DNA from: Pseudomonadota bacterium
GTDB lineage: Bacteria > Desulfobacterota > Binatia > UBA1149
Direction: 5' to 3'
NCBI GenBank assembly: GCA_014382245.1
Contig: JACNKC010000076.1
Coordinates: forward strand, 1-42,687
Length of the DNA: 42,687 bases
Below the pieces are notes generated by a model. The model did not search any database. It was not told the origin of the DNA and worked only from the letters and a program-made list of their open reading frames with translations. Positions 25,737-42,687 of this stretch are shown here, one piece after another. The position numbers and the translations under genes were made by a program. How positions within the stretch are numbered: position 1 is the first letter of the stretch; each line of letters starts with the position of its first letter.

Positions 25737-26732
25737 ATGACAGACCGAGCGGCCCCTCCAATACCCAACGGCTGGTACGCTGTTGCTTGGAGCAAGGAAA
25801 TTGAACCCGGTGGGGTCAAGCGTGTGTACGCGTTTGAGAAAGAACTCGTCGTGTTTCGCACCGAGTCGGGCAAGGCCACGATTTTTGACGCGTACTGCCC
25901 GCACCTTGGCGCCCACCTGGGCGAGGGTGGTACGGTTGTTGGCGAGAACCTGCGCTGCCCGTTCCACCACTGGCAGTTCGACACCGACGGCAGCTGCGTT
26001 GATATTCCCTACGCAAAGCGTGTGCCGCCCAAGGCTTGCGTGGGAGCGTGGCCGGTGGTCGAGCGCGCCGGAATGGTGTTCGCGTGGCACCACGCGCTGG
26101 GTGGGCCGCCGTTTTTCGAGGTGCCCGAAGTGCCCGAGTACAACCACGCAGACTGGGCCGAGCCCCACTTCTGGGAGATAGAGGTCGACGTGCACGTGCA
26201 GGACATGGCCGAAAACAACTGCGACCCACCGCACTTTCTTTACGTTCATGAATCCGAGGAAGTGCCCGAGAGCGAGATCGAGTATCTCGACGGCGGGCTG
26301 ACCATGCGCATGGCCAGTTCGAGTGAGCGCGAGACGGTGATCGGCACTTACACCTCTGAACTCGAGCGCTACACCTGGTGCATCGGCCTGGCCGGCGTCA
26401 GGGTCAAGGGCATCGGTGACGCGGGCCTGTTGATGTTCTCGTCGACTACGCCGGTCACGCGTACGCACGCTCACTCGCGCTGGGTGTTCATGGTCACTCG
26501 CAACCTCGAGGGCAGTGCCGGCCAGGAGTTCATCGACACGATGAAGGAAGGTGTACAGCAGGACCTGCAGATATGGAATAACAAGAAGCACCGCGCCGAC
26601 CCGCTGCTGTGCGAAGGCGACCGCTTCCTGGCCGAGTTCAGGCGCTGGGTGAGACAGTTCTACTCTGAACCCGTGGGCCCTGAGCGCGTCGAAGCTCCGG
26701 TGCCCACCACGGGGGAGGCCGCCCAGGCATGA
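25737..26732 (+). CDS. Rieske non-haem iron oxygenase (KshA/Neverland-like)
   Basis: 331 residues. Rieske [2Fe-2S] ligands CPH (C54, H56) and CPFH (C74, H77). The mononuclear Fe site is in ENNCDPPHFLYVH (D-x2-H-x4-H), typical of Rieske oxygenase alpha subunits. PNGWYAVAWSKEIEPG, FDAYCPHLGAHLG and WPVVERAGMVFAWHH resemble the KshA and cholesterol 7-desaturase (Neverland/DAF-36) group, and a sterol C-4 demethylating oxygenase (SdmA-like) is another possibility. A steroid or terpenoid substrate is inferred from similarity and from the nearby CYP51 and cycloisomerase homologues, not proven. It follows TetR by 4 nt, with GAAGGAG upstream, and leads into the amidohydrolase. Confidence 0.86.
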   Translation: MTDRAAPPIPNGWYAVAWSKEIEPGGVKRVYAFEKELVVFRTESGKATIFDAYCPHLGAHLGEGGTVVGENLRCPFHHWQFDTDGSCVDIPYAKRVPPKACVGAWPVVERAGMVFAWHHALGGPPFFEVPEVPEYNHADWAEPHFWEIEVDVHVQDMAENNCDPPHFLYVHESEEVPESEIEYLDGGLTMRMASSSERETVIGTYTSELERYTWCIGLAGVRVKGIGDAGLLMFSSTTPVTRTHAHSRWVFMVTRNLEGSAGQEFIDTMKEGVQQDLQIWNNKKHRADPLLCEGDRFLAEFRRWVRQFYSEPVGPERVEAPVPTTGEAAQA

Positions 26733-26751
26733 AAAGGAGATTGAATCTGCG

Positions 26752-27960
26752 ATGACCAACGATTCCGCCACCACGGGTGCAGCCGACCGTTGCCTCGTCA
26801 TATCATCGGACTGTCACGCGGGCCTGCCGCCCGAGCAGTACCGCGAGTACGTTGACCCGCAGTTTCGCGAAACTTTTGATCTTGCGCTGCCTATTCAGAT
26901 CGAGAAGACCGAGGAGGCCTCGCGTGTCTTTCTCGTGGACGAGATCAACGACGAGTGGCGCAAGGGTATAGAGCGCGAGCTGTCGGGCGCGTGGGATTCG
27001 GACATAAGGCTCGAGGTAATGGACGGTGATGGTTGCGCCGGCGAGGTTATTTTTCCCGACGGCATTACCGAAATGAACATGCCGCCCTTCGGTGCCGGGC
27101 TGTCACTGCCAACCGAGGACATCGTGCCCGAGCTGCAGTGGGCCGGTGCGCGTGCGCACAACCGCTGGATGGTCGAGTTGTGTGCCCAGGCGCCAGAGCG
27201 TCGCGCTGGGCTGGCCATCGTGCCGGCGCTATGGGACGTGGACGAGGCGGTAACAGAGGCGCGCTGGGCCCACGTAAACGGTTTACGTGGAGTCCTGTTG
27301 CCTACTTGCTGGGGGCGCGAGCCGGCTTGGAATCACAGGCGTTACGATCCGCTGTGGGAGATCTGCGAAGACCTCGGCCTGGTCGTCAACTTTCATTCCG
27401 GTGCTGCTCCCATGAAGGACTACGGCGAGGGCCAGGGGATGGTGGGCATCTACATCAGCGAGGTGGCGTGGTGGACGGCGCGGCCGCTGACCTTCATGAT
27501 CTGGGCCGGTGTATTCGAGCGCTACCCCCGCTTGAAGGTGGCTGTGACCGAGGGCACGGCGGTGTGGGTGCCGGAGTTTCTGGAGCTGATGGATTTTCGT
27601 TACGAAGAGACGCACTTCGCCGCCAAGCTGGGCGACTATCGTAGTCACCTGTCGATGAAGCCCAGCGAGTATTTTCGTCGCAATGTTTTCGTGGGGGCGT
27701 CGTGCATGTCGCGGCGCGAGGCCGAGAGCAGGCACGACATCGGCCTTGCCAACATGTTGTGGGGGTCGGATTACCCGCATCCCGAGGGTACCTGGCCCGG
27801 CACGCGCGAGCAGATGAGCGTTACTTTTGCTGGGCTGCCCGCTGACGAGGTGCGCGCCATGCTCGGCGGCAACGCGGCGGGTCTTTATGGTTTTGACACT
27901 GATGCCCTGGCGCCGGTGGTCGAGCGCGTCGGCCCGCGCATGGAAGACATCACCGGCTAG
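26752..27960 (+). CDS. Amidohydrolase-family (ACMSD-like) protein
   Basis: 402 residues. SSDCHAGLPPEQYREYVDP at the N-terminus has D-C-H in place of the usual H-x-H. LVVNFHSGAAPMKDYGEGQG, the loop WAGVFERYPRLKVAVTEGTAVWVP and GSDYPHPEGTWPGT are standard for the amidohydrolase_2/ACMSD-like family common in aromatic and steroid catabolic clusters. It would act as a metal-dependent hydrolase or decarboxylase. AAAAGGAGA lies about 12 nt upstream; 19 nt separate it from the Rieske gene, so the TetR-Rieske-amidohydrolase genes probably form one operon, possibly continuing to the SDR. Confidence 0.83.
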   Translation: MTNDSATTGAADRCLVISSDCHAGLPPEQYREYVDPQFRETFDLALPIQIEKTEEASRVFLVDEINDEWRKGIERELSGAWDSDIRLEVMDGDGCAGEVIFPDGITEMNMPPFGAGLSLPTEDIVPELQWAGARAHNRWMVELCAQAPERRAGLAIVPALWDVDEAVTEARWAHVNGLRGVLLPTCWGREPAWNHRRYDPLWEICEDLGLVVNFHSGAAPMKDYGEGQGMVGIYISEVAWWTARPLTFMIWAGVFERYPRLKVAVTEGTAVWVPEFLELMDFRYEETHFAAKLGDYRSHLSMKPSEYFRRNVFVGASCMSRREAESRHDIGLANMLWGSDYPHPEGTWPGTREQMSVTFAGLPADEVRAMLGGNAAGLYGFDTDALAPVVERVGPRMEDITG

Positions 27961-28030
27961 GCTGATACGCTCCTTCGGGGTAAAAAACGCGAGGGCTGCC
28001 GTCGGGATTGCCGGCCGGGAGTAACGAGAT

Positions 28031-28888
28031 ATGAAAGACTACGCTGAAAAAACGGCCGTCGTTACTGGCGGCGCCAGTGGCATAGGCCTGGCCCTGGGCC
28101 GTGAACTGGCAGCCCGGGGGGCGAGGGTGGTGCTGGCCGACGTCGAACAGTCGGCGCTCGACACGGCGGTGGCCGGCTTGCGCGAGACCGGTGGCCAGGC
28201 CCACGGGGTGGTCACTGACGTGAGCGACTACGAGTCGGTGGTCGCGCTTGAGCGTCGCTCGGTCGAACTGGGTGACGGAAAGGTGCACCTGCTGTTCAAC
28301 AACGCGGGCGTGGGCGTGTACGAGGACCTGCCGCTGTGGGAGCTGCCGCTGGTCGACTGGAAGTGGACACTCGACGTCAACCTGTGGGGGGTGATCCACG
28401 GCCTGCGCGCGTTCGTGCCCGGCATGCTGGCGCACGGCGAGCCCGGTCACGTGGTTAACACGAGTTCGGGCAACGGGGGGCTTAGCTTGTTGCCGACCAC
28501 GCCGATCTACTCGACCAGCAAGGCGGCGGTGAGCACGCTGACCGAATCGTTGCACCTGCAGCTGGTGGCGGCCGGCGCGGCCATTCGCGCGTCGGTGCTG
28601 TACCCGGGGCCGCACATGGTGTCGAGTAATATTTTTACGGCGTTTCGCAACCGCCCGAGTGGGTTGCTGCGTGACGAGGGTCAGCAGACTCCGCCCACGC
28701 TCGACGAGATTCGCGAGATGGTGGCTGGCATGGGCCAGGAATTGGAGCTTACAAGCCCCGAGCAGGTGGCAGCCATGGCCATGAGCGCGCTCGACGACGA
28801 CGAGTACTGGATACTTGACATGAGCGACGATACCGAGGCGGCCGTCCGCGCTCGCCTCGAAAACATCCTCCACCGCCACACCCCCTGA
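28031..28888 (+). CDS. Short-chain dehydrogenase/reductase
   Basis: 285 residues, classical SDR: TGGASGIG near residue 12, NNAG near 95, Ser in NTSSGNG near 147 and IYSTSKAAV (YxxxK) near 162. The C-terminal part (YPGPHMVSSNIF, RNRPSGLL) is seen in SDRs annotated for broad alcohol or steroid substrates. GGGAG lies upstream of ATG 28031. The TGA is followed after 4 nt by REP copy 1. Confidence 0.88.
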   Translation: MKDYAEKTAVVTGGASGIGLALGRELAARGARVVLADVEQSALDTAVAGLRETGGQAHGVVTDVSDYESVVALERRSVELGDGKVHLLFNNAGVGVYEDLPLWELPLVDWKWTLDVNLWGVIHGLRAFVPGMLAHGEPGHVVNTSSGNGGLSLLPTTPIYSTSKAAVSTLTESLHLQLVAAGAAIRASVLYPGPHMVSSNIFTAFRNRPSGLLRDEGQQTPPTLDEIREMVAGMGQELELTSPEQVAAMAMSALDDDEYWILDMSDDTEAAVRARLENILHRHTP

Positions 28889-28892
28889 CAAC

Positions 28893-28957
28893 GGGAAGAC
28901 GTACCTTTTCGCGGTTTGAGACCACGTCAGAAAGGCGGAAAAGGTAGGAGGTCTGCT
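28893..28957 (+). repeat. REP-like palindromic element, copy 1
   Basis: Core 28903-28945 (43 nt; ACCTTTTCG ... GAAAAGGT, apical GAC-CAC-GTC). GGGAAGACGT lies on the left and AGGAGGTCTGC on the right. It starts 4 nt after the SDR stop codon, in + polarity (GGGAAGAC end nearest the gene). With copy 2 it brackets the RAYT gene in inverted orientation. The stem is interrupted at GCGG versus GGCG. Confidence 0.85.
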
Positions 28958-28971
28958 TCGTTTTCATCCCT

Positions 28972-29643
28972 TTACCCGGCAGTGATTTTTTTTGGCCGAC
29001 CGTGCGGCCGGTGACGGATCAGCTTGCTGGTTCGATTTGACCAGGGCTTATTGCCGAAAGGGGAGCTGTTGGCCGCGCTTTTTCTAAGGGCGTTAAGTTC
29101 GGCACTGCTCTGGGGGAGGTTTACGTAAGGTTCCCAAGCGTCGGGACGTTGGCAGGGCCACTCGCAAAGTGGTGGCAGACCATTTTTTTTGCACCCCATC
29201 GAACGTCCGGCGCTGCTCCAAGCCCACTCTCCGGCGCTCTGGACCAACCCTGCTCTCAGGGGGTTCCGCTCAACGTACCGACATACCGCGAGCAGGTGCT
29301 CATCGTCCTGCACCGCGAACGCCTTGAACGGGCCTCGGTATACGTGCCCGTTGCCCGGGTTTTGGCGGCAGGCGCGTAACCTTCTCACGTGGGTACAGGT
29401 CAGCCAGTGCATGAATCGCGACAGTGCCTCGTCGGTTTGCGGCCAGAGAACCATGTGGAAGTGGTTGGGCATGACACAGTAGGCAAGCAGCCGCATGTCT
29501 TTAACTTTTTCCAAGCCCTCGGTCATGACTTGTTCGAAGGCGCGGTAGTCTCCCGCTGAGCGAAATATGGGAATCCGTTCGTTCGCCCGGTTGAGTACGT
29601 GAAAAACCATACCCGCGGGTGTGATTCTGCGTCGTCCTGGCAT
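28972..29643 (-). mobile_element. REP-associated tyrosine transposase (RAYT, Y1/IS200-like HUH family)
   Basis: 223 residues. MVFHVLNRANERIPIFRSAGDY is the usual RAYT start. PNHFHMVLWP is the HUH metal site (H-F-H). CRYVERNPLRAGLV carries the catalytic Tyr region, and AGEWAWSSAGRS is conserved in RAYTs. It cuts single-stranded REP hairpins and is thought to move or maintain REP sequences. Inverted REP-like copies lie 15 nt beyond its 3' end (28893-28957) and 57 nt upstream of its start (29700-29764), the typical RAYT arrangement. There is no sign of decay. Confidence 0.93.
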
Positions 29644-29699
29644 GTGGGAAAATATGCCGCAGAAAGCGGTTATGGCGCAACTACAGGGAAGTTATAAAT

Positions 29700-29764
29700 G
29701 GAGATCTACTACCTTTTCGCGGTTTGAGACCACGTCTGAAAGGCGGAAAAGGTACGTCTTCCCC
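29700..29764 (-). repeat. REP-like palindromic element, copy 2
   Basis: Core 29711-29753 (43 nt). It has the same left half as copy 1 and a right half differing at one base. The flanks are reversed: GGAGATCTACT on the left and GTCTTCCCC (29756-29764) on the right, so it lies on the - strand. The GTCTTCCCC end is 6 nt after the stop (29771) of the - strand MBL gene. Confidence 0.85.
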
Positions 29765-29770
29765 TTCCAG

Positions 29771-31294
29771 TCAGGGGAGGGCGTGGGACATGTGGTGGAG
29801 GTAGGTCAGCGTGGCCTGCAGCGGGGTCGGTTGCAGTGGGCCTCCCATTCCAGGTGCGGCCCGGGTAGGCACCGCAGGGGGGGGAGTCGCGAGAATGCGC
29901 CGGCGGTAAACGTCGAGCACCAGCTGGCGCGCGAGACTTGATTCGGGGGCAGCGAGCAGGGCCTGGTCGGCCAGGTGACAGGCGAGCCGCAGGTCCTCGT
30001 CCATGAGTGCCCGCGCCCGCGCGTCGACGGCCGCAAGGCCACCGGCCATCTCGACCTGCAGCGCCGCCAGCCGCTCGGGCGAGGCGGGGTCCCAGTGCGA
30101 CGGCTGGTCATCCCACCAGCCGGTCAACTCGTGCACCACCGTGCGCGCCACGTCGCGCAGGCTGACATAACGTTCCTGAAGGCGAGAGTCGTTGGCAAGC
30201 TGCGCGGGCAGGACGACCGACGCCACCACCTCGTCTTTGCGCATCCCCGAGTTCAAGCCGGCTACCACCTGGTCGACCACCGACTGCAGGGCCTCGGCCA
30301 GCAGCAGCAGGTTGTCGCGGATTTCAGCCGGGTCGTCGAGCGCCTGCCCGTGCCCGGGCAGCAACACGCGCGCATTGAGCGACGCCATTTCCTTGAGCGC
30401 AAATGCCCACTCTTCAACGTGCCGCTGCACTCGCTTGCCGTTGCCCGCGTTAGGTATGAACGACTGCCAGTAATCGGCCGACGCCAGCACCCGCCGGTCG
30501 GCCGCCCACACGTAGAGCTGATCGTCGGTCTCGCCGCGGTGGTGCACCAGGACAAAAGTTTCGCCGCCGATCTCGAGAACCAGGCGATCGCGAAAGGTAC
30601 GCGTTGGCCACACGATGTCGTCGCGCGTGGCCGGCAACTGCTCGACGGGTTGGCTCATGTAGTGCGCGATCGAACCGCGCAGCCGCAGGTAACGCTCAAA
30701 TCGCGGGATGATGGCCTCGTGGGCGATTATGTTGCGCGGGTTCATGCCTGCGTCGGCCAGCGCCCATGCACCGTAAGCGTGATCCACGTGGCCGTGCGTG
30801 TATATGACCGTGTGCAGGGGCGCGTCGCTCACCGAGCGTATGGCGTCAACCAGTGCCGGCCCTGCCGGTGCCATGCCGGTATCCACCAGCAGCAGGCCGT
30901 CGCGCGTTTCGAACAACACGGCGTTTACGATCGGCATGCGGATGAGCCATGTGTTCGGCGCCACGAGCTCGGCGCGGGTCTTCGCGCGCGCGTCGGCTAT
31001 CGCCTGCGGGTCGTCGCGCGAAAACATGTTCTCGGCAACCGCGCGCGAGTAGTCACCCCAGATGCGGGCGTTGCTGATGATGCCCGGCAGCAGCTCGGGG
31101 TAGCGGGCCAGCACGCGCGATCGCGCCGCGAGGTCGGCACCACCCACGGCACGGTCGAGCGCCGTTCGCGCAGGATTTTCTACTGCCCGGTAGAGCTGGT
31201 TCGCGCTGCGGCCGCCGTACTCGCTGCTCCCCAGCACCAGGCCCAGCGTGGTGAACAGAGCGGCGACCAAGAGGTAGCGAAGCAGAGCAGCCAT
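29771..31294 (-). CDS. MBL-fold hydrolase, alkylsulfatase (SdsA1/BDS1)-like
   Basis: 507 residues. N-terminal hydrophobic segment (LLRYLLVAALFTTLGLVLGS) acting as signal anchor or signal peptide, so a periplasmic or membrane-attached enzyme. Metal-binding THGHVDHAYG (HxHxDH) near residue 175, ADYWQSF near 275 and LLPGHGQAL near 305 are metallo-beta-lactamase fold sites. The helical region after ~330 (VVHELTGWWDDQPSHWDPASP) matches the dimerisation domain of class III alkylsulfatases. Likely sulfate-ester or related hydrolase; the substrate is inferred. REP copy 2 follows the stop by 6 nt. Confidence 0.83.
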   Translation of the reverse strand: MAALLRYLLVAALFTTLGLVLGSSEYGGRSANQLYRAVENPARTALDRAVGGADLAARSRVLARYPELLPGIISNARIWGDYSRAVAENMFSRDDPQAIADARAKTRAELVAPNTWLIRMPIVNAVLFETRDGLLLVDTGMAPAGPALVDAIRSVSDAPLHTVIYTHGHVDHAYGAWALADAGMNPRNIIAHEAIIPRFERYLRLRGSIAHYMSQPVEQLPATRDDIVWPTRTFRDRLVLEIGGETFVLVHHRGETDDQLYVWAADRRVLASADYWQSFIPNAGNGKRVQRHVEEWAFALKEMASLNARVLLPGHGQALDDPAEIRDNLLLLAEALQSVVDQVVAGLNSGMRKDEVVASVVLPAQLANDSRLQERYVSLRDVARTVVHELTGWWDDQPSHWDPASPERLAALQVEMAGGLAAVDARARALMDEDLRLACHLADQALLAAPESSLARQLVLDVYRRRILATPPPAVPTRAAPGMGGPLQPTPLQATLTYLHHMSHALP

Positions 31295-31427
31295 GGCCTA
31301 TCTTTCCCCCGCAGCCGTGCGCAATCAAAAAAACTCTGGGGAGGGGAGCCGGGGGCAATTCAATGGCTTCAGCCGCGCGACAGGACGGGCTCTTCAGCTG
31401 CGGGACTGGTTACCGAAACGCGACAAC

Positions 31428-31492
31428 CGAGACCTGCTACCTTTTCGCGGTTTGAGACCACGTCTAAAACCTCGAAAAGGTAGGTCTTCCCC
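31428..31492 (-). repeat. REP-like palindromic element, copy 3
   Basis: Core 31439-31481 (43 nt) with a better-paired stem than copies 1 and 2 (18 of 20 positions): the right half reads AAAACCTCGAAAAGGT, compensating the left CGCGGTTT. GTCTTCCCC at 31484-31492 is 6 nt after the stop (31499) of the FAD monooxygenase, so polarity is - strand. No transposase is nearby. Confidence 0.87.
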
Positions 31493-31498
31493 TCCTGG

Positions 31499-33163
31499 TC
31501 AGGGGCTCGCGCCGCGCACGAGGTCGATCAGGGCCGCGGGGTCGGCCGGGGGTGAGTTGCCGCGCCACGCCACGTGCTGGTCGGGCCTGATCAGTACGAG
31601 GTCGCGTTCGTACAGGCAGCGCACGGCGTCATCGCCCGGGTCGAGCAGGTCGAGCACAGTTAAAGGCAACCCGCAAGCAGCGGCGGCCCGCTCTATCCTC
31701 GACACGTCGTGGTAGGCAAACCTGGCCAGCGTGAACCCCTTCCCAATCAGGTCAAACAGTGCGCGCCCGTCGGCCAGGAAGGCGCTTGGCGAGCGGACAC
31801 CGGGCCGGGTGGACGGCTGGTAGCGCAGGGCATCAAAGGCCGGCGCCGGTCCGTCCTCGTGGCAGACCACCGGCGAGTCGGAGTAACAGTAGCCCATCTC
31901 CAGCCCGAGGCTTTCGTTCTCGGCGTTGCCCAGTTCGAGTATCGCGAGCCCGGCAGAAACGCGTGCGAGCCGTGCCTCGTCGTCGTCGCGTCCGTCGAAG
32001 GCGGCCGCTTTCGCGCAGTATTCCATGATTGGTAGGCGCACCGACATGTGCTGGCCCGAGGCGTCGCGGTTGCGTAATGCTACTGGCCGTCGCTCACGTT
32101 GGTAGCTGTCAAGCAGGCAGGCCCCCCCCCAACCGTGCAGCACGGCGGCTAGTTTCCAGCCCAGGTTGGCGGCCTCGCTCACGCCGGTGTTCATGCCGTA
32201 GCCGCCGGTGGGTATGTACTGGTGGGCGGCGTCGCCGGCCAGCAACACGCGCCGGTCGCGGTAGTTTTCGGCCACCAGCAGGTGCGGGGTCCAGCGGTTG
32301 GCGCGTAGTATCTCGCAGTCGATTTTGCAGCCCAGCGCTTCGAACAACATGGCGCGGGCGTCGAGATCAGCCTCGTCGGCCCCCGCGGGAAACGCCACGT
32401 GCATGGTCCAGGTGTGGTCGTCGTCCTGGGCGATGAGCGTCCCGTGTTGCGACTGGTAGTGCCACGCCACACCCCAACGCTGCAGCACTGCGCGTTCTTC
32501 AGAGCGGAAGTGAATCATGTAGAGCTCGGCCACTGACGCTGTGCCTTCCAGTTCTATGCCGAGTTGCCTGCGCACCGTGCTGCCGCCGCCGTCACAGCCA
32601 ACGAGGTAGCGACAGCGCAGTCGCCGCTGCTCGCCGTCATCACAGCGCAACACGACGTCGACACCGTTGTCGTCCTGCTCAAAACTTTCGAGCGTGGTAG
32701 AAAACCTGGTGTCGATGCCGTCGCGCTGTTCGAGCAAGCGCCTGAGCTCGGGTTCGATGACGATCTGAGATACGCGCATGGCCGGCTCCAGCGCGAGCGT
32801 GCCGTCGTTCACGTAACGGATTATAGCGCGGGCCTCGTCCACGCTGGGATAGCTGAAGCGAGCGAGTTCGTGGCCGGCCATCGACGTGACCCAGGCGATG
32901 TCCATGGGGTGGTCACGGGGAACGGCCACGTTGCGCAGCGCGTCGGCGAGGCCGAGCCTGCGCAGGTGTTCCATGCTGCGTGGGTTGGTGATGTCCATCT
33001 TGGGCGCGGCGGTGCCAGTTGCGTTGCGTTCCACGAGCACGCAGTCAACGCCCTGCCACGCCAGCTCGTGGGCCAGCAGGAGGCCAACCGGCCCGCCGCC
33101 AGCCACCAGCACTGCCGTGTCAAAACCGTCAGCTTCGCGCCCGTTGATAAGGTTCATGCCCAA
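31499..33163 (-). CDS. FAD-dependent aromatic-type monooxygenase (PheA/TfdB family)
   Basis: 554 residues. FAD-binding VLVAGGGPVGLLLAHELAWQG near residue 20, a DG-like segment ('GCDGGGSTVRRQLGI' near 193), and GDAAHQYIPTGGYGMNTGVS near 313, the second FAD motif. These define flavoprotein hydroxylases of the para-hydroxybenzoate hydroxylase superfamily. The C-terminal thioredoxin-like tail (RPDQHVAWRG) is typical of the phenol 2-hydroxylase/TfdB group. It hydroxylates an aromatic or polyketide-like substrate with NAD(P)H and O2. It lies 24 nt downstream of the HsaA-like gene, so probably one operon. REP copy 3 follows its stop. Confidence 0.9.
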   Translation of the reverse strand: MGMNLINGREADGFDTAVLVAGGGPVGLLLAHELAWQGVDCVLVERNATGTAAPKMDITNPRSMEHLRRLGLADALRNVAVPRDHPMDIAWVTSMAGHELARFSYPSVDEARAIIRYVNDGTLALEPAMRVSQIVIEPELRRLLEQRDGIDTRFSTTLESFEQDDNGVDVVLRCDDGEQRRLRCRYLVGCDGGGSTVRRQLGIELEGTASVAELYMIHFRSEERAVLQRWGVAWHYQSQHGTLIAQDDDHTWTMHVAFPAGADEADLDARAMLFEALGCKIDCEILRANRWTPHLLVAENYRDRRVLLAGDAAHQYIPTGGYGMNTGVSEAANLGWKLAAVLHGWGGACLLDSYQRERRPVALRNRDASGQHMSVRLPIMEYCAKAAAFDGRDDDEARLARVSAGLAILELGNAENESLGLEMGYCYSDSPVVCHEDGPAPAFDALRYQPSTRPGVRSPSAFLADGRALFDLIGKGFTLARFAYHDVSRIERAAAACGLPLTVLDLLDPGDDAVRCLYERDLVLIRPDQHVAWRGNSPPADPAALIDLVRGASP

Positions 33164-33187
33164 GTCCGAGTTTCCACGCGAAGACCC

Positions 33188-34489
33188 CTACAGCATGGGA
33201 TGCTGCATGGTCGCCTCGGAACCCAGCAGCAAGGCACCGGCGTCCTCGAGGCTCTTGGTCTGTCCCATCAAGTGCTGGCATGCACTCTCGGCGTCGCGCA
33301 GCGCGCGGTCCAGCGGCGATCGTTTGGTATACACGGCACCGCCGCCCAGGGTGTCGTACATCAACCGCGTACAGTCGCGGGCCGACTGGAAGGCGTTCAG
33401 GCGAGACAGCCACACCGCGCTGCGTTGGGCCACGGAGGGCTGGTCTCCGCGCTCGTACACATCCCACAGCTCGGCCAGCGAGCCGTATACCCACGAGCGC
33501 GCGGCACCCAGCTTCATCTCGGCCCGGGCCACGGCCGCCTGCACGCGGGGAACGTCACGGTAGGCAACGCCCGAGGGAAAGGCCACGCGGCCCTGCACGG
33601 ATTCGCTCACGTGGTCAATGGCGGCGCGGCCAAGACCCAGCGGCACGCCCGACATCTTGCGCAGAAAGGTCTCGTTGCTGCGGTAGAGGGTGCCCTCACG
33701 CCGGGCCGGCTCCATGAAGCTGAAGCTACGCTCGGAGGGCACCAGCAGGTCGCAGCAACGGTAGTCGTTGCTGCCGGTTCCGCGCAGCCCGGTGGTGTAC
33801 CAGGTGTCGAGTATTTCGTACTCGTCGCGCGGTGCCAGCACGATGCGCCACTCGGGCATGCCGTTTTCGCTTATCACCGGCTTGTCGTTCTCGTGCACGA
33901 CCACTCCGGCAGCCAGCCAGTCGCAGTGGGTGCATCCGCTGCCGAACAGCCAGTCGCCGTTCACCAGGTAGCCATCGGCTGTACGGTCGGCGCGGCCCAT
34001 GGGGTACACCCAGCCCGCCTGCACCATGTCGAGGCGCGGGTACATCACTCGGGCTACCTCGTCTTCAAGCCAGGACGAGTACAGTCCGGCGTCGCAGCCT
34101 ATCATTATGCACCAGCCCACCGAGGCGTCGCCGCGCGAGACCTCCTCGATGACTTCTACCTGCTGCATGCTGGTCATCTCGGGACCGCCCCATTCACCCG
34201 GCATATTCATGCGGAAAAAGCCGGCCTTGAGCAGTTGCTCGACGAGGTCGGCCGGCAGGCGTCGTAGTTCTTCGATTTCGGCCGACCGCGAAGCCAGGGT
34301 CGGACGCAGCGCGCGCGCGTTGGCAAGAATCTGCGCGGGTTCGAGGTGGTCGCCCTGCTGGGGGCGAAGGGTTGTTGGTGTTGTAGTGGCCAGAGTACCG
34401 CTCCTCGGGCCGCCTGGACGACCGCGGTTGGGATTCTGTTGTGTCGCCGCCTGCAACGCAACAAGGCCCCGGCTTGATCGGTAAACCAT
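33188..34489 (-). CDS. Acyl-CoA dehydrogenase-fold flavoprotein, HsaA-like monooxygenase
   Basis: 433 residues. The start is at 34489, from a strong AAGGAGG ribosome site 8 nt upstream; a longer open frame runs antisense into the divergent P450 and is not coding. Low-complexity leader (about 45 residues), then SAEIEELRRLPADLVEQLL, GDASVGWCIMIG, FGSGCTHCDWL and WYTTGLRGTGS, as in HsaA-type flavin hydroxylases (compare the paralogue at 23843-25003). Needs a separate flavin reductase. It forms an operon with the FAD monooxygenase downstream and is divergent from a P450. Confidence 0.85.
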   Translation of the reverse strand: MVYRSSRGLVALQAATQQNPNRGRPGGPRSGTLATTTPTTLRPQQGDHLEPAQILANARALRPTLASRSAEIEELRRLPADLVEQLLKAGFFRMNMPGEWGGPEMTSMQQVEVIEEVSRGDASVGWCIMIGCDAGLYSSWLEDEVARVMYPRLDMVQAGWVYPMGRADRTADGYLVNGDWLFGSGCTHCDWLAAGVVVHENDKPVISENGMPEWRIVLAPRDEYEILDTWYTTGLRGTGSNDYRCCDLLVPSERSFSFMEPARREGTLYRSNETFLRKMSGVPLGLGRAAIDHVSESVQGRVAFPSGVAYRDVPRVQAAVARAEMKLGAARSWVYGSLAELWDVYERGDQPSVAQRSAVWLSRLNAFQSARDCTRLMYDTLGGGAVYTKRSPLDRALRDAESACQHLMGQTKSLEDAGALLLGSEATMQHPML

Positions 34490-34537
34490 TGCAGCCGCCT
34501 CCTTTTGCGTGGGGCGCCGAGGTGTGAGAGAACGCGC

Positions 34538-35854
34538 GTGACCCTGTTGGAGGACGCCGCCTTGGAACCTGTACGCGAACTTGGACTCGATGAAATCAAG
34601 CTCTCTGAACAGAGCTTCTGGGAGCTGAGCGAAGAAACACGCGAGGGCGCGTTCGCCACTCTCAGGGAGCAACGCCCGGTGGCCTGGTTCGAGGCGCCCG
34701 ACGTGGGTGACATCCCCGGCCTTGAGGCCGGCGCGGGCTACTGGGCGCTGACCCGCCACGCCGACGTGCTCGAGGCCAGCCGCAAACCCGAGCTCTTCAG
34801 CTCCGACTCGAGCTACGGTGGCACTCAGATCATCGACCTGCCCACGGAGTACAGCGAGTTCTTCAACGGCATGATCTCCATGGACGACCCGCGCCACGCT
34901 CGCCTGCGCGGGCTGATCTCGGCGGGTTTCACGCCGCGCATGCTCGGTCGCATAGAGCAGGCCGTGGAGCGCGCCGCACGCGAGGTGGTCGATTCGGTCA
35001 TCGAGAAAGGCGAGTGCGACTTCGTGCTCGACGTAGCCTCACCGTTTCCGCTCATGATCATCTGCGACATGATGGGGATCCCGCGCAGCCAGCTGGACTT
35101 CGTGTTCGACCGCTCCAACATAATCCTGGGCGCGGGCGATCCCGACTACGTGGCCGACGTGCAGGACATGGTCGTGGCCCAGCTCACGGCCGGGGCCGAG
35201 CTGGCCCAGCTCATGGAGGAGCTGCGCACGGAGCGCATCGCCAAGCCCACCGACGACATTACCTCGGTGCTGGTCAACGCCGAGGTTGATGGCGAGAGGC
35301 TCACCGCCCAGGAGTTGTCATCGTTCTTCGTGCTGCTGGCGGTGGCCGGCAACGAGACCACGCGTACTGCCATCTCGCAGGGCTTCAAGGCATTGAACGA
35401 AAATCCTGACCAGCAGCGCCTGTGGATGGACGACTTTGACGGCCTCAACTCGACCGCGGTTGAAGAGATAGTGCGCTGGGCAACGCCGGTCATTCATTTT
35501 CGGCGCACGGTCACCCGCGACACCGTCATCGGGGGGCAGGCGGTAAAAGAGGGTGACAAGGTCGTGCTGTGGTACAACTCTGCCAACCGCGACGAGGACG
35601 CGTTCGAGCGGCCCTTTGATTTTGACCTGGCCCGCAGTCCCAACGAGCACGTGGGATTCGGTGGCCCCGGGCCCCACTTCTGCCTGGGCGCCAACCTGGC
35701 CAGGCGCGAAATAACGGTATTGTTCCGCGAGCTTTTCGGCCGCGTGCCCGACATCAGGCCCACGGGCGACCCCGACCGCCTGCTGTCGTTTTTCATACAC
35801 GGTCTCAAGCGAATGCCGGCCGAGTTTACGCCGGGCGCGCTGTCGGTCGGCTGA
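34538..35854 (+). CDS. Cytochrome P450, CYP124/CYP125/CYP142-like
   Basis: 438 residues if GTG 34538 is used; TTG 34562 with GGAGG upstream is an alternative, and the frame stays open a little further upstream. Complete P450: SMDDPRHARLRGLISAGFTP, AGNETTR near residue 270, EEIVR (ExxR) near 308, VIHFRRTVTRDT near 320 and haem loop FGGPGPHFCLG (Cys near 384). The FRRTVTRDT...LARREI pattern is characteristic of the CYP124/125/142 group, which hydroxylates sterol side chains and branched lipids at the omega position. That activity is an inference from resemblance. It is divergent from the HsaA-like gene across about 48 nt. Confidence 0.87.
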   Translation: MTLLEDAALEPVRELGLDEIKLSEQSFWELSEETREGAFATLREQRPVAWFEAPDVGDIPGLEAGAGYWALTRHADVLEASRKPELFSSDSSYGGTQIIDLPTEYSEFFNGMISMDDPRHARLRGLISAGFTPRMLGRIEQAVERAAREVVDSVIEKGECDFVLDVASPFPLMIICDMMGIPRSQLDFVFDRSNIILGAGDPDYVADVQDMVVAQLTAGAELAQLMEELRTERIAKPTDDITSVLVNAEVDGERLTAQELSSFFVLLAVAGNETTRTAISQGFKALNENPDQQRLWMDDFDGLNSTAVEEIVRWATPVIHFRRTVTRDTVIGGQAVKEGDKVVLWYNSANRDEDAFERPFDFDLARSPNEHVGFGGPGPHFCLGANLARREITVLFRELFGRVPDIRPTGDPDRLLSFFIHGLKRMPAEFTPGALSVG

Positions 35855-35904
35855 GCGGGTGGCCACGGGGGGGCCCAGGTACCGTTGACCGCGGGGGGGG
35901 GGCT

Positions 35905-36876
35905 TCAGACCTGGCGCAGGAATTCGGACAGGCCGTAGCCGGTGCGACCGTTCATGGTCCACTCGGTCATGCCTTCGCCTATGTGCGTGGTCATTCCACC
36001 CCGGCGGTTGCGCAGCGGTATGAAACCTTTTACCTCTCCGTTGATGTCGAACTCGCGACCCGACGCGGTGGCGATGTGCACGCGCAGCGCGCGGTGGTAC
36101 AGGCCGTTGTCTTCGTAATCGGCATCAATTTCTACCCCGGTAACGCGATCGATCTTGCCACCCTCGACCACCACGCCGCCGAGGCGGATGTCATCGGGGC
36201 CGCGGCGGATAATGCTGACCATGGCACCCAGGTCGTCGCCGAAGTTCATGGTGAGCCACTCGTATCCTTCGATGGCCTGCCAGTAGCGAGGTCCCCAGCT
36301 GTGGTCGCGCAGGCCGTGCCCGTTGATCTCCACCGTTTCGTCGCCCAGCAGCAAGCGGCCGCTCACCCGCATGTGCTGTTCGTAGTGCGCCTTGGCAAAC
36401 TGCTGGTCATCGGGGAGCTTGTCTTCGCTCTTGTCACCCGAGCTTCCGTACATGGGTCCGACCGCAACGTGATCGAGTTCGAGTGACAGTGGCCGCGACG
36501 GGTTGTCGGTAAACGCGCGTCGGGGTTCGGCCATCTGCGTGGGGTCGGCGAGCTCTACCACCTGCCCGCTGTAAGTTGTGCGCAGGTGATGGCCCGGCTC
36601 GACCACGGTGAAGCACATGCCGCCGGCCTCGAATGAATCGTTGTTGTCGATGGCAGGCCTCGCAAAGTTGAACAGCACTCGCCCATCGGGCAGGTAGACG
36701 GTCACCGTCATCTCGGCACGGCCCTCGTTAGCGCGGTTGCCCAGGCGCACGAAACCTCCCACGCCGCGGTCGCGGTCGAAGAAGTTGAAGTACATGCTCT
36801 CGTTGAAGTTGGGCTCGGGGCCCAGTGGGTGGGTGTAGTCGTCGTCGGGGCTGATGTTGCCAAGCGTGAGTGTCAT
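35905..36876 (-). CDS. Uncharacterised CrtC/AttH-like beta-barrel protein
   Basis: 323 residues from ATG 36876 (a GTG two codons earlier is possible). LRDHSWGPRYWQAIEGYEWL near residue 192 is the D-x-SWG motif also found in 12412-13536 (KDRSWG). The surrounding strands (FNFFDRDRGVGGFVRLGNR; VSIIRRGPDDIRLGGVVVEGG) suggest a two-barrel lipocalin-like fold. No signal peptide. Function unknown. It lies between a CYP124/125-like P450 and an unknown gene, all potentially linked to lipid metabolism, but nothing fixes its role. The space between it and the P450 (35855-35904) is very G-rich. Confidence 0.55.
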   Translation of the reverse strand: MTLTLGNISPDDDYTHPLGPEPNFNESMYFNFFDRDRGVGGFVRLGNRANEGRAEMTVTVYLPDGRVLFNFARPAIDNNDSFEAGGMCFTVVEPGHHLRTTYSGQVVELADPTQMAEPRRAFTDNPSRPLSLELDHVAVGPMYGSSGDKSEDKLPDDQQFAKAHYEQHMRVSGRLLLGDETVEINGHGLRDHSWGPRYWQAIEGYEWLTMNFGDDLGAMVSIIRRGPDDIRLGGVVVEGGKIDRVTGVEIDADYEDNGLYHRALRVHIATASGREFDINGEVKGFIPLRNRRGGMTTHIGEGMTEWTMNGRTGYGLSEFLRQV

Positions 36877-36951
36877 GCACACTTGTTAGCCCGGCCGCGC
36901 AGTCCAGTCGAGGCGGCGGCGCGCGAGCCACGCACACGCCGGCGAGTAGCC

Positions 36952-37659
36952 CTAGTTTTCGTCCAGGTCTTCGAGGCTGACGAGCTCAACGCCCAGCCCC
37001 TCGTCGTCGTCCAGCTCCACGCCTGCGGGCATCTCAGCGGTTTCGGCGTCGGTGGCGGGCACCTTGAGCGCTCCTTCCATGTTGCCCAGCGAAGTGGTCG
37101 GAAAAGGGCTGCGGCCCACCTGCACCGAGCGGGTATCGCCGGTAGCAGTGCGCCGCTCGAACTCTGTACGTTTCCACTTCATGAGTTGCTCTCTGAGCGC
37201 CACGCCATCGATGTTGAGCGTGTCGCAGACCGTGCGAAACGAAAAAGGGTATTCCCAGCAGTCTTCTGTTATCCAGGTCTCGGCCTCGTCGGACATGCGG
37301 CGGTACCTCAGTCGGCTGGCGCCTGCGTGCTTGTAGAAGCAGCGAATACTATCCTTGAGCACCGCGTACATCAGCGCCCTCTCGGGTCCCATGGCGTCGT
37401 CGTTCAGCTGCGAGGCAAAATACTGTTCGGGCAGGGTGAGGTCGGGGCTCAAGTGATCGAGCAGCGACGGCATGAGTGTGAAGTTGCCGCTAAGCGCGTC
37501 GGGTTCGTGGCGGCGCGGGCTGCGACCCTTACCAGGTGCCTGCATGCCCTTTTTGCTGGAACCGTTTGCCGAGGAACTACGGCTGGAGGCGCTGCCGCCC
37601 GAAGCGGGCGAAGTGCTGGTTGAGGTGGATCGGGCGGGTTCGGTGCTGCTTCGATTCAT
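36952..37659 (-). CDS. Conserved hypothetical protein
   Basis: 235 residues if ATG 37659 is used; an internal Met at 37545 or 37473 could be the true start because the first ~50 residues are Ser/Thr/Lys-rich and no ribosome site precedes 37659. The folded part has LPEQYFASQ, ALMYAVLKDSIRCFYKH, RLRYRRMSDEAETWI and CWEYPFSFRTVCDTLNIDG, suggesting a small helical domain, possibly DNA-binding-like (the segment VCDTLNIDGVALREQL resembles a helix-turn-helix). The C-terminus is acidic (VELDDDEG...). I do not recognise it with confidence. Confidence 0.5.
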   Translation of the reverse strand: MNRSSTEPARSTSTSTSPASGGSASSRSSSANGSSKKGMQAPGKGRSPRRHEPDALSGNFTLMPSLLDHLSPDLTLPEQYFASQLNDDAMGPERALMYAVLKDSIRCFYKHAGASRLRYRRMSDEAETWITEDCWEYPFSFRTVCDTLNIDGVALREQLMKWKRTEFERRTATGDTRSVQVGRSPFPTTSLGNMEGALKVPATDAETAEMPAGVELDDDEGLGVELVSLEDLDEN

Positions 37660-38092
37660 GGGAGGGAGTTGTCCAAGAACTGTGCCGCTATCGACCTTCC
37701 CCGATCGGGGGCCAACCGGGGGCCAACCGGCCCGGCGACGGTCACCTGGCCAGGCCGTCCAGACTCCACACCCCCTGCCGGGGGCGCCCCTGCAGGCCGC
37801 GAGAAACAGGCTTTTACTGTCGGGATTCTGTCGTGCGCCCTACTTGCTGTCGTGGCCCCTTCGTGTCGGGCTGGCCATTTGGGGGGGACGGACTCACCCG
37901 TTCGGGTGGGCCGGGGGCCTTATTGCATCCCCGCGATGGCGTGGAGGATTCGTGCAGAATCGCCCGATACCCGCGCCTGGTGCGCTTCAGAAACAGTGAT
38001 AGGCCATTCGCTTGACACAATTTGAAGGGGGTGGGTATAGTTTGCAATCTTGTTCAGCCCGCTGAGGGTTGTGGGCAAGGCACCCGAATTTT
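37660..38092. other. 433-nt non-coding region upstream of a TetR gene
   Basis: It contains a CCCCGATCGGGG palindrome (about 37699-37710), then two tandem 11-nt CGGGGGCCAAC units (37706-37727), and a good promoter near the right end (38012-38041). I see no gene, RNA or repeat family in the middle. The tandem units could bind a regulator but there is no further support. Confidence 0.5.
38012..38041 (+). promoter_or_regulatory. Sigma70-like promoter
   Basis: TTGACA at 38012-38017 and TATAGT at 38036-38041, 18 nt apart. It lies 52 nt upstream of the TetR gene at 38093 and is the clearest promoter of the right half of the window. Confidence 0.65.
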
Positions 38093-38725
38093 ATGGCTGA
38101 CCAGCAAGAGGGACGAAAACTGTCGCGCAAAGAGCGCGAGCTGCAGTTCAGGCTCAACATTGTCCTGGACGCTGCCCAGGAGGTGTTTTCGGAAAAGTCC
38201 TTCGGCCAGGTGTCTGTCGAAGAGATCGCCACCCGCGCCGAGATCAGCGTGGGAACGCTGTACAATCTTTTTCATAGTAAAGAAGAGGTCTACACCGCTG
38301 TTGTCTCACGATCGCAGGGAGAGTTTCTCGACACGATTGGGCGCTTGCTGGGCGAGGCCCGCGGTCCGCGCGAGCAGGTACTGGCCGTTGTGCGCGGGCA
38401 CCTGCAGCACTTTGCCAGTGTTGAGAACGCGATGAAGATATACATATCGGCCACTAACGGTTTTCAGTGGGAGCTGCGAACCAAGCTGGCCGTCGAAGTA
38501 AGCGAACGCTTATCGGGCTTTGAGGCCGAACTGGTCAACATATGCCAGGCGGGCATGGACGAGGGCATATTCAAAAAAGACGTGTCGGCGCAAGACCTTG
38601 CGGCGGTGATCCTGGGCGTGCCCCACTCCTTTCTGATGGCTGCTGCACGCAGTAACCCGCCCGACGTGGCTGCCGGCATACCGGCGGCCGAAGCCACCGT
38701 CAACCGCCTCCTGGGCACTGATTGA
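38093..38725 (+). CDS. TetR-family transcriptional regulator
   Basis: 210 residues from ATG 38093 (a GTG 24 nt upstream is possible). RKERELQFRLNIVLDAAQEVF and VSVEEIATRAEISVGTLYNLF form the TetR DNA-binding domain. The C-terminal helical domain (residues 60-200) is of the AcrR type. It has its own promoter and no close operon partner, so the regulated genes are unclear; the divergent unknown gene at 36952-37659 is the nearest candidate. Confidence 0.9.
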   Translation: MADQQEGRKLSRKERELQFRLNIVLDAAQEVFSEKSFGQVSVEEIATRAEISVGTLYNLFHSKEEVYTAVVSRSQGEFLDTIGRLLGEARGPREQVLAVVRGHLQHFASVENAMKIYISATNGFQWELRTKLAVEVSERLSGFEAELVNICQAGMDEGIFKKDVSAQDLAAVILGVPHSFLMAAARSNPPDVAAGIPAAEATVNRLLGTD

Positions 38726-38837
38726 TCGCGGCCGCCTGATCGCCCGCCGGCAGCTTTCGATTTACTCTCCGCGCACTCTGCCTCGAACAATCAACATAAA
38801 GCATCATTGTGTTCAAGTGGCGTCAGGGCTTGGCTGC

Positions 38838-38868
38838 GCTGGACTGTTATAGTAGTAAACAGTCCAGC
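38838..38868. promoter_or_regulatory. Perfect 11-bp inverted repeat
   Basis: GCTGGACTGTT (38838-38848), a 9-nt AT-rich loop (ATAGTAGTA), then AACAGTCCAGC (38858-38868). It stands alone in the leader of the gene starting at about 38977 and is more AT-rich than its surroundings. It could be an operator (for example for the TetR just upstream) or a transcript hairpin. Confidence 0.45.
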
Positions 38869-38976
38869 AGTTGCGCTCCATTCTTGAATCCGCATTTCTT
38901 GAGCGGTGTTGCTGCCTGGTGTGGTAATTGGCCCTTCTTTCCGGTTGCGGGGAAGGGAGGCGGACGAGGATGTGGT

Positions 38977-39669
38977 GTGATTAAGAGCGAGCTCAGGGTT
39001 CCGAGCCTGACGCATGCAAAGGCGGCAGGCATATGCGACACGGCGTTAAAGGCCATGGGTCTGGGCGCCGAGAAAGCGCTGGACTACAGGGACGGTTACG
39101 ATTTTCTTGTCGGGGGGCAGGTGCGCGTGGCGGTGCGCTATGCTTTTCCCACCTCGGACCGTGAGCAGGTCTACACCAAGCGCAACGGCGAGGTGTCGCG
39201 CTATCTCTACAAGCGCTGGACCTTCAACTTCCACCGCCACGGCAAGATGGACGTGCGCTACTGCGATTTTTTTGTCTGCCTGCTTGCACCCGTGGGCGAC
39301 AACGCTGCTGCCGGCGGCGACCTCAGTGTATTCGTCATTCCCTGGGAGGCGGTGACCGGACTCACGTTCTGTTCTTCAACGCGGGTTGGAAGCACGAGGC
39401 AGTACTGCGGCAAGTACGCGCGCTTTCGTGACGGGTGGAACCTGATCTCCCAGGCGGCAGGCGTTGGCCTGGCCCAGACCGGTCGCATAAAGATAAACGA
39501 TAAGGCCCGTGCGGCGCTGAGGTTGGTCAAGGGCGGTGCCGATTCGCGCGCTACAGCAAAGGGCGACAACAAGCTGATCAACCTGCGCGGCGAGGGCGAC
39601 GTTAACGGCGACGGTAGCGACCAGCCACCGGTGGGTCCCACCGGTCGCGGATTGCGGCCGGTAGTCTGA
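38977..39669 (+). CDS. Conserved hypothetical protein, possible nuclease-like fold
   Basis: 230 residues from GTG 38977 (GAGGA about 6 nt upstream); the frame is open back to 38809 but that part is not conserved-looking and contains the inverted repeat. Body: LDYRDGYDFLVGGQVRVAVRYAF, KRWTFNFHRHGKMDVRYCDF, VFVIPWEAVTGL and QYCGKYARFRDGWNLI. The D...VRVAVR...WTF...DFFV...VIPWE layout recalls PD-(D/E)xK-type nucleases, but the expected E-x-K reads A-V-R, so it may be inactive or unrelated. The tail is Gly-rich. Low confidence in any function. Confidence 0.45.
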   Translation: MIKSELRVPSLTHAKAAGICDTALKAMGLGAEKALDYRDGYDFLVGGQVRVAVRYAFPTSDREQVYTKRNGEVSRYLYKRWTFNFHRHGKMDVRYCDFFVCLLAPVGDNAAAGGDLSVFVIPWEAVTGLTFCSSTRVGSTRQYCGKYARFRDGWNLISQAAGVGLAQTGRIKINDKARAALRLVKGGADSRATAKGDNKLINLRGEGDVNGDGSDQPPVGPTGRGLRPVV

Positions 39670-39683
39670 CCCGGGCGCGGCGC

Positions 39684-40223
39684 TCAGCGCCGTTCGAGAA
39701 CCTCGCGCGTAATAAACAGCACCGCCGTGCCAGCCACGGCCAGCAGCAGCGGCAGCAGCCCGAAGGGCTCCAGCAGCGCCGGGCTGGTGGCAAGCGCCCC
39801 GCAGACAGCCGCGCCGGTCAGTTGCAGGCATTCCACGGCCAACAGTCTGTGCCGTGGCTGAGCGGGCACGGCTGATTCTTCCACCATTCGGTAGGCCTCG
39901 GCCAGCTCCACGTGCTGGCCCTCTATTTCTCCGTTGGTCGACAACCGCCGGGCCCTGGCTATGAGTTCGGTGCTGTAGCGATTGACGTTAAGGCGCAGCA
40001 GCTCCCTGGCTTCGGGCGTGACCTGCAGTGCCTCGGGATGGCTGGAGTCGGGACTGGCCGATGGGTCAGTACCGGCAGGCGAGCTCGCCCGGCGCGGCAC
40101 ACACTGCCCGCCCAGGCGGCGGCGGGCCGCGTCGAGTTTGAGTATGCGCGCGCCGGTTGACCGTCGTTCGTGTTTTGCGGCCCGTTGCGGGGCTGCGCTT
40201 GCTCGTACCATGCGTTGTTCCAT
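39684..40223 (-). CDS. Hypothetical protein with C-terminal membrane segments
   Basis: 179 residues. Basic N-terminus (RAAKHERRSTGARILKLDAAR), a central helical part with QVTPEARELLRLNVNRYSTE, then one or two hydrophobic segments (CLQLTGAAVCGALATS, FGLLPLLLAVAGTAVLFI) and a charged end (TREVLERR), giving a cytoplasmic domain tethered by a C-terminal hairpin. No family recognised. Its ATG is immediately preceded by a hairpin (40224-40277) that covers the ribosome site. Confidence 0.55.
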   Translation of the reverse strand: MEQRMVRASAAPQRAAKHERRSTGARILKLDAARRRLGGQCVPRRASSPAGTDPSASPDSSHPEALQVTPEARELLRLNVNRYSTELIARARRLSTNGEIEGQHVELAEAYRMVEESAVPAQPRHRLLAVECLQLTGAAVCGALATSPALLEPFGLLPLLLAVAGTAVLFITREVLERR

Positions 40224-40277
40224 GTTGCTTTACTCTCCCTGTTGCGTTTCGTCCGCGGCCAGGAGAGGTAAAGCAAC
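40224..40277 (-). promoter_or_regulatory. 5' leader hairpin sequestering a ribosome-binding site
   Basis: On the - strand the leader of the gene starting at 40223 reads GTTGCTTTAC...GTAAAGCAAC-ATG. The 10-bp outer stem extends by about 5 pairs (TCTCC with GGAGA) after a one-base bulge. The GGGAGAG Shine-Dalgarno lies within the 3' arm, fully paired and directly before the ATG. Such a structure would limit translation unless opened by a ligand, heat, protein or upstream ribosome. Confidence 0.5.
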
Positions 40278-40463
40278 GCCCGTGCCATCGTCCCCGGCGC
40301 CGTAACAGCACGGTTTATGCGGTCTGCTGGCCAGCGGGCGCAGCCAGCCAGCGTGAAAAAAATGACTCCGTGACGCTGTTCTGATTGTATGGCCCCCTTG
40401 TGGCCACGCCGCCTTGCGCTATCCTGATGGCTGACTGTCCGTTTGGCGCGTATCGTTATCCGT

Positions 40464-40555
<92 letters not shown>

Positions 40556-40681
40556 GTCGGTAAACGGCAATGGGCATGCGCCGGCGAGGGTACTGGCCGG
40601 TTATAGATACTGCCCGCGATGGGCACGCGGGCGATGATGGGTAGCAGGTCGGTAGACGGCCAGGGGAGCGGAGGCGGTAAC

Positions 40682-41392
40682 GTGGCAGTTTATTGCAAGG
40701 CAGACGACGGTTGGCTCACTGGCAGGTGGCTCACTGTTGGATTTAGAATAGCCGGTTTGCTGGTGTTGGCACTGGCGGCGGCGGGTTGCTCGGCCAGGGC
40801 AGAGCCCGAGGCGGTGGCGCCCAGTCATTTCGTGCAGATAAGAGATCTGGGCATGGGCTATGCCCACAACCATGGTGCACGACCCTGCTACTCGATCGAG
40901 TTGGCCGACCCCGATTGGCGCCTGGAGGAATCTAAACCCGACTGGGCTCAGTTCTCCCGCCTGGACGGCGTGCTCAGGGTTTATTTTGTCGATAACCGAG
41001 AGGTGGGTTTTGCCGTTGGAGGCATGGAGGCAGAGGAGGCATTGCGGGCTTTCATCGGGGCCGAGGCGGCGTTCATCAAGCCGTTGTTCCAGTTCCAGTC
41101 GGTGGAGTCGCCCAAGCTGGCCGAGGACGACAACGGCATCTGGGTGCAGTGGGCCTGGGAAGGTCTCGCGGGCAATCGACGAGGAGCCGGCAGCCGGGCC
41201 CCGGATGACCAACGCCACGTTGTAGCCAGCCTGTGGATGGACCCCTGGGTGCTGAGCTTTGACTGGGCCACCACCGAGGTTGAGGCCGACTACTTCGGGC
41301 CTACGCCCGAGATGATCGACATACTCGAATCGCTGCGCTTTCACCCGGCCTGCTTCGCGGCCATGCGCACGGGCGAAACCTGGTCCCCCTGA
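40682..41392 (+). CDS. Lipoprotein of unknown function
   Basis: 236 residues from GTG 40682, selected for its GGAGG at 40670-40674 (7-nt spacing); the frame is open upstream to 40619. Signal sequence with hydrophobic core FRIAGLLVLALAAAGC and a lipobox (LAAAGC), so probably a membrane-anchored lipoprotein. The mature domain (VQIRDLGMGYAHNHGARPC, YSIELADPDWRLEES, WVQWAWEGLAG, VVASLWMDPWVLSFDW) is not recognised. TGA at 41390-41392 is followed after 7 nt by REP copy 4. Confidence 0.6.
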   Translation: MAVYCKADDGWLTGRWLTVGFRIAGLLVLALAAAGCSARAEPEAVAPSHFVQIRDLGMGYAHNHGARPCYSIELADPDWRLEESKPDWAQFSRLDGVLRVYFVDNREVGFAVGGMEAEEALRAFIGAEAAFIKPLFQFQSVESPKLAEDDNGIWVQWAWEGLAGNRRGAGSRAPDDQRHVVASLWMDPWVLSFDWATTEVEADYFGPTPEMIDILESLRFHPACFAAMRTGETWSP

Positions 41393-41399
41393 AGAATAA

Positions 41400-41464
41400 G
41401 GGGAAGACGTACCTTTTCGCCCATTGAGACGAGGTCTTAATGGGCGAAAAGGTAGTAGGTCTCC
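41400..41464 (+). repeat. REP-like palindromic element, copy 4
   Basis: Core 41411-41453 (43 nt). This copy is the best paired: 19 of 20 stem positions match and the remaining one is a G-T pair; it uses CGCCCATT/AATGGGCG where copy 3 has CGCGGTTT/AAAACCTCG. GGGGAAGACGT precedes and AGTAGGTCTCC follows. It begins 7 nt after the lipoprotein stop, + polarity, and lies 12 kb from the RAYT gene. Confidence 0.9.
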
Positions 41465-41486
41465 TTCTGGAGCAAGTCAGCGGTGA

Positions 41487-41966: not shown

Positions 41967-42018
41967 CTTGTTTTCTCTCCCAGCTGGGCGGCTCGAGCAG
42001 CGCAGTCAGCCGGCGCCG

Positions 42019-42675: not shown

Positions 42676-42687
42676 CCCCCGCCCCCC

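Follow-up and report, generated by a model that had tools for sequence, protein, structure and literature searches.

A RAYT gene bounded by hairpins with inverted boxes, and possible in-place turnover of REP-like hairpins, in a Binatia genome

Described systems and the layout of the element

REP hairpins rank among the commonest repeats of bacterial genomes, and the classical REPtron, with its GTAG REPs, is said to have been set out by Nunvar in 2010. The part of Di Nocera et al. 2013 available to us describes TIRtrons or TIRYTs, that is, RAYT-like genes lying within long inverted repeats that in some cases belong to repeat families (PMC3733652). Near RAYT genes of subclasses 2.1 and 2.3, the accessible text of a further study reports no REP-like sequences (PMC6006769). 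One REP class can also yield to another around the RAYT and genome-wide, a change termed 'orthoswitch' (Nunvar et al. 2013, PMC3686654); in the available portion of that paper, the way in which one class replaces another is treated as a matter for speculation.

The element described here spans 28893-29764 of a 42,687-nt stretch of DNA (the window) from an uncultured bacterium, and comprises box A, a hairpin, box B and a minus-strand RAYT, followed by box B, a hairpin and box A with the boxes inverted. The left outer box A (GGGAAGACG; 28893-28901, plus strand) lies 4 nt past the stop codon of an SDR dehydrogenase gene (28031-28888) and is followed by the 45-nt hairpin core of copy 1 (28902-28946, plus strand), which reads TACCTTTTCGCGGTTTGAGACCACGTCAGAAAGGCGGAAAAGGTA, and by the inner box B (GGAGGTCTGC; 28947-28956, plus strand). 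The RAYT itself, a Y1/HUH transposase of 223 aa, is encoded at 28972-29643 on the minus strand. On its other side stand the inverted inner box B (29700-29709, minus strand), which reads GTAGATCTCC, the core of copy 2 (29710-29754, placed on the minus strand by its boxes, the core itself being direct relative to copy 1) and the inverted outer box A (29755-29764, minus strand), 6 nt from the stop codon of a metallo-beta-lactamase-fold gene (29771-31294). Two genes thus converge on the transposase gene, each with its 3' end towards it.

A preliminary description of this DNA had proposed that a complete RAYT is bracketed by inverted hairpins with identical flanking boxes in opposite orientation. 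The gene is indeed complete, with an intact 223-aa reading frame that keeps H61-x-H63 and Y123. The boxes are opposite, and at the outer edge GGGAAGACG is found at both ends, at 28893-28901 and, inverted, at 29755-29763; the inner boxes, GGAGGTCTGC and GTAGATCTCC, match more poorly than the outer ones. The cores, in contrast, are not inverted: 44 of their 45 bases agree in direct orientation, versus 31 of 45 when one of them is inverted. As the cores are direct, recent copying of one end from the other in inverted register was ruled out.

These features make it very probable that we are dealing with an element of the TIRtron/REPtron type, in which a single Y1/HUH gene has ends (box A, 21-bp hairpin, box B) belonging to a dispersed family of non-autonomous hairpins. 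Like the TIRtrons in the available text of PMC3733652, it has a Y1 gene bounded by inverted repeats, which in TIRtrons can come from a moderately abundant repeat family and are partly self-complementary in some cases; here the inverted repeats are the boxes, and the cores inside them are direct.

A dispersed family of box-tagged hairpins

Searching the window for a 26-mer of the core gives three exact matches, as against 0.00 in shuffled sequences. The window holds four copies of the family, the other two being solo A-hairpin-B copies at 31426-31495 (copy 3, minus strand) and 41397-41466 (copy 4, plus strand), of which the latter is diverged. Genome-wide, a strict pattern matches at 16 places, and its reversed control at none. 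A covariance model built from these 16 copies gave 44 rows in the 2.94-Mb genome, which, merged by hand, represent 23 distinct places and a further weak one. The proposal that the hairpin defines a REP family had hung on the existence of further copies, and these searches supply them, two of them within the window. As expected of a REP family, the repeats are dispersed, palindromic and mostly intergenic by a heuristic gene call; 23 copies are nevertheless few for such a family, which counts against an element of REP type.

In general, a copy consists of a 21-bp hairpin with box A (GGGAAGACG) before it and box B (GNAGGTCTNC) after it. Nineteen of the 23 copies have the layout A-hairpin-B and four have A-hairpin-A; B-hairpin-B is absent among them, and every copy has at least one A box. 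The hairpin is shortened to about 20 nt, with loss of its upper part, in C53, C93 and C91b, and one further copy (C54b) is scrambled; such shortened and scrambled copies could be passive relics. Besides the two ends of the RAYT, the sole close inverted pair is L056 (G000 C91:4242-4424), which consists of A-hairpin-B, about 66 nt, and B-short hairpin-A; this scarcity of close inverted pairs also counts against the element model. In L059 (G000 C54:12008-12083) the upper hairpin has given way to a stretch of T and another of G. L064 (G000 C28:70268-70362) is an A-A element in which part of the left hairpin arm is duplicated and joined through a short match of ACGT. Three places, G000 C70:16889, C116:42634 and C32:3702 (L286, L303 and L060), hold a third hairpin family characterised by CCTTTT arms and the box GGGGATACGCACC; its other end is GAGCGCATCCC in L286 and L303.

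Across 16 copies, 89.9% of the cells of the stem are paired versus 86.5% in shuffles, and the covariation score of 0.108 (0.066 in shuffles) is reached by 0 of 500 shuffles. Less striking are the six pairs changed on both sides, a number equalled by 40 of the 500. Pairing departs in a variable 4-nt segment of the stem. Folding z-scores range from -2.1 to -7.9, and for three of the four copies in the window, partial pairing between the boxes is predicted, which leaves an asymmetric bulge. In the 16 readable A-B copies the 3-nt loop is CAC or TAC in eight, GTG or GTA in six and another word in two. Since the loop has no fixed direction, the idea of a nested insertion, with the loop being the point where a hairpin-less box A was joined to box B, was ruled out. 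Inversion of the core between its boxes seems to occur freely. It is not easily explained by point mutation; template switching in the hairpin or a cut-and-rejoin reaction by the transposase could account for it.

By the heuristic gene call, 11 of 22 copies have box A no more than 4 nt from a stop codon (C24 was left out of this count), and none has box B so placed. Assuming a 5% chance per copy, the probability of 11 such cases is approximately 2e-9.

The likeness to described REPs is partial. As in the classical REPtrons of the available portions of PMC8266576 and PMC6006769, a single HUH/Y1 gene is flanked by a dispersed gene-end hairpin with an irregular stem; in contrast to classical REPs as given there, the core is long here, at 45 nt, and the copies number 23, where classical REPs often exceed 100. 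Unlike in classical GTAG REPs, the 5' GTAG/GTGG foot is missing, and the foot in the aligned copies is GGGAAGACG. With the CGTC-tagged REPs, as far as the accessible text of PMC3733652 describes them, the family shares a CGTC bounding one side of the stem and first pairs T-A and A-T. In the same text, however, their stems are of 8-9 bp (21 bp here) with loops of 4-5 nt (3 nt here), and they are reported without a cognate transposase, whereas a likely one is present here.

The transposase and its relatives

The RAYT matches the Pfam family PF01797 (Y1_Tnp) with E=1.6e-12; the genome has no second PF01797 gene, and the RAYT is not multiplied in the manner of an IS. This agrees with its earlier designation as the likely transposase of the hairpin family. 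H61, H63 and Y123 are invariant in an 18-row alignment of the protein with 17 relatives of 43-55% identity, and the core of the RAYT class (class 2 of the Y1 HUH transposases: PF01797, HUH, catalytic Tyr) is therefore present. A profile of this alignment matches the solved TnpA-REP structure 4er8 (E=2e-10). Against the NCBIfam profile of REP-associated tyrosine transposases (REP_Tyr_transpos) the protein reaches 69.9 bits, short of the curated cut-off of 80, and neither a PHROG search nor a PDB search with the single RAYT sequence gave a match. Pfam finds Y1_Tnp alone, with no C-terminal DnaA-type or HTH domain as in subclass 2.1. Of the marks of the class 3 Y1 proteins (PMC6006769), the Y----Q motif is replaced by YVERN, and the CnGA foot by GGGAAGACG.

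A total of 76 relatives were found, in records largely titled Planctomycetota or subgroups thereof, with a few Deltaproteobacteria and others; the nearest in the tree belongs to a record titled Deltaproteobacteria (support 96/95). The third-position G+C of the RAYT is 0.67, versus 0.84 and 0.82 in the two neighbouring genes, which is what a recent arrival might show. Forty-one of the 76 relatives were scanned for terminal inverted repeats, of which one was too short. By hand count, 32 of the 40 scored are flanked by inverted repeats that exceed the best of 20 shuffles by 4 points or more. These repeats are short and of the AAAAGGGGACAGGTCC type, many reading AAAA(A/C)GGGGACAGGTCC. In G100 (C263; L304, L309), a genome of the same class with a RAYT 52% identical to the present one, the motif GGGGATAAGTCC occurs at both ends of the gene and also away from it; a degenerate pattern of it gives seven matches, two of them flanking the gene, and its control gives one.

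As the relatives carry short terminal inverted repeats, the nearest known kind is the TIRYT/TIRtron, and this is a closer label than the classical REPtron because the tags at the ends are boxes and not GTAG. Shared with the TIRtrons, as given in the available part of PMC3733652, is a G-rich outer motif, the relatives of the RAYT having GGGGACAG-type ends. In contrast, box GGGAAGACG or GGGGAAGACG misfits the GGGGWSAS motif published there: compared ungapped as GGGGAAGA, it departs at three of eight bases, while many of the relatives fit. Most TIRYTs, according to the accessible text of PMC6006769, possess C-terminal HTH domains, unlike the present RAYT, which has no such Pfam match.

Sister genomes and the possible turnover of hairpins

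The source genome was compared with two congeneric genomes (G001 and G002), the three representing one genus; over the main matched parts of 26000-42687 the sisters are 89-95% identical to it, and for most of what matches on the contig the identity is about 89-93%. The Y1 transposase is absent from both sisters. At E<=0.01 the covariance model finds no match in either of them, and none in any of 38 other genomes overall, a figure that understates relics, as one in G002 (at C70b, 23.5 bits) falls below the genome-wide threshold. Both sisters have 58 nt in place of a segment of about 3.2 kb (31331-34502) that carries copy 3 and the gene of a PF01494 FAD monooxygenase.

With the two ends of the RAYT counted as one site and the C91 pair as another, the family occupies 21 sites, of which 18 can be compared with the sisters; C93, which has no sister match, and copy 3, whose region is absent from them, were among those left out. 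At seven of the 18 a sister carries a second hairpin family, A', with box GGGGATACGYTCC, as judged against null windows that themselves contain some other A' sites and hence make the null too generous. These are the RAYT locus, copy 4, C105, C115, C120a, C24 and C68, the last with two mismatches. Remnants of A type are seen in a sister at four or five sites, namely C70b, C16, C25, C28a and, weakly, C54a; in the sister at C25 two boxes stand together and the hairpin is gone. Neither type is seen at C120b, C28b, C91, C70a, C53 and C54b, where C53 is scored as neither in view of a missing clean left anchor in the sisters. Two candidates were rejected: C60 was not counted as an eighth shared site, the A' of the sister lying about 100 nt off in the same gap, and C16, which mismatch counts had placed with A', has in fact an A-type box.

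The A' pattern has 9 and 10 matches in the sisters (controls 2 and 1), of which 5 and 6 fall on family sites of the source genome, against about 0.06 expected by chance per sister genome if 2,600-2,800 gene ends are assumed from its size. The source genome gives 10 matches with this pattern, part of which must be chance as the control gives five. At three further sites A' is present in the source genome and a sister alike, which indicates that A' is old in the genus; together with the A-type remnants in the sisters, this indicates that both families predate the split.

The most interesting result is an apparent turnover of REP hairpins in place, with A standing here where the sisters have A'; its direction and mechanism are inferred. 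In the element model the transposase would bind the folded single strand, which it presumably cleaves, and would cut near box A through Y123; the cut strand would be rejoined elsewhere, so that copies might spread mostly to positions just downstream of stop codons, and the transposase or a predecessor would have tended to land on or overwrite sites of another hairpin family. The hairpins might instead be terminators or mRNA-stabilising structures kept by selection at gene ends, with the RAYT caught between two of them by accident. The proximity of box A to stop codons in half of the copies counted, the strong folding z-scores and the occurrence of a different family of hairpins at several corresponding sites in the sisters are all in keeping with this; but terminators would not be expected to have in common a 9-nt box outside the stem, or an asymmetric A/B layout over many places, and the same box bounds the RAYT on both sides just as the inverted repeats of its relatives bound theirs. 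We therefore regard this explanation as improbable and retain the transposable element.

For such an element, one possible, if tentative, scenario is that a RAYT-type enzyme overwrites resident REPs: it would know the related foot of the old hairpin, cut it and exchange it, so that the new class takes sites already occupied. Yet IS200/IS605 enzymes pick short target words, and both families adjoin TGA stop codons at several sites, so that the sharing of sites could merely reflect independent insertions into very few permissible targets, with no replacement at all. This seems rather unlikely given the 5 and 6 shared sites where about 0.06 are expected on the assumed number of gene ends, and given that the A copies inspected have no visible vestige of A', the older element, next to them. 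For the latter reason overwriting of one family by the other is to be preferred, by a modest margin, over a narrow shared target. The overwriting might also have run in the reverse direction, with A-type hairpins of the sister lineage replaced by an A'-type transposase that was active there and was lost afterwards. This is conceivable in the light of the A-type remnants kept by the sisters (C70b, C16 and C25), the three other sites with common A', by which both families predate the split, and an A'...A' pair at the RAYT locus of G001 that resembles a deletion scar. Against it, the sisters retain no Y1 transposase, whereas the A-type one is intact in the source genome, and we doubt the reverse course, without giving the forward one more than a tentative place.

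The element itself belongs to a known type; it is the swapping of hairpins in place that looks new. In an orthoswitch, as presented in the available part of PMC3686654, the old REPs stay and decay, whereas here the new class occupies sites of the other class of the sisters. A search of the full-text literature by titles and abstract openings, with subscription journals largely outside its coverage, found no published in-place replacement of REPs. Since sites can be paired across the three congeneric genomes, with one candidate enzyme and known foot sequences to hand, replacement could be tested with oligonucleotides in vitro. If true, in-place overwriting would offer a mechanism both for the turnover of REP classes described as orthoswitch and for the free inversion of hairpin cores between their boxes.
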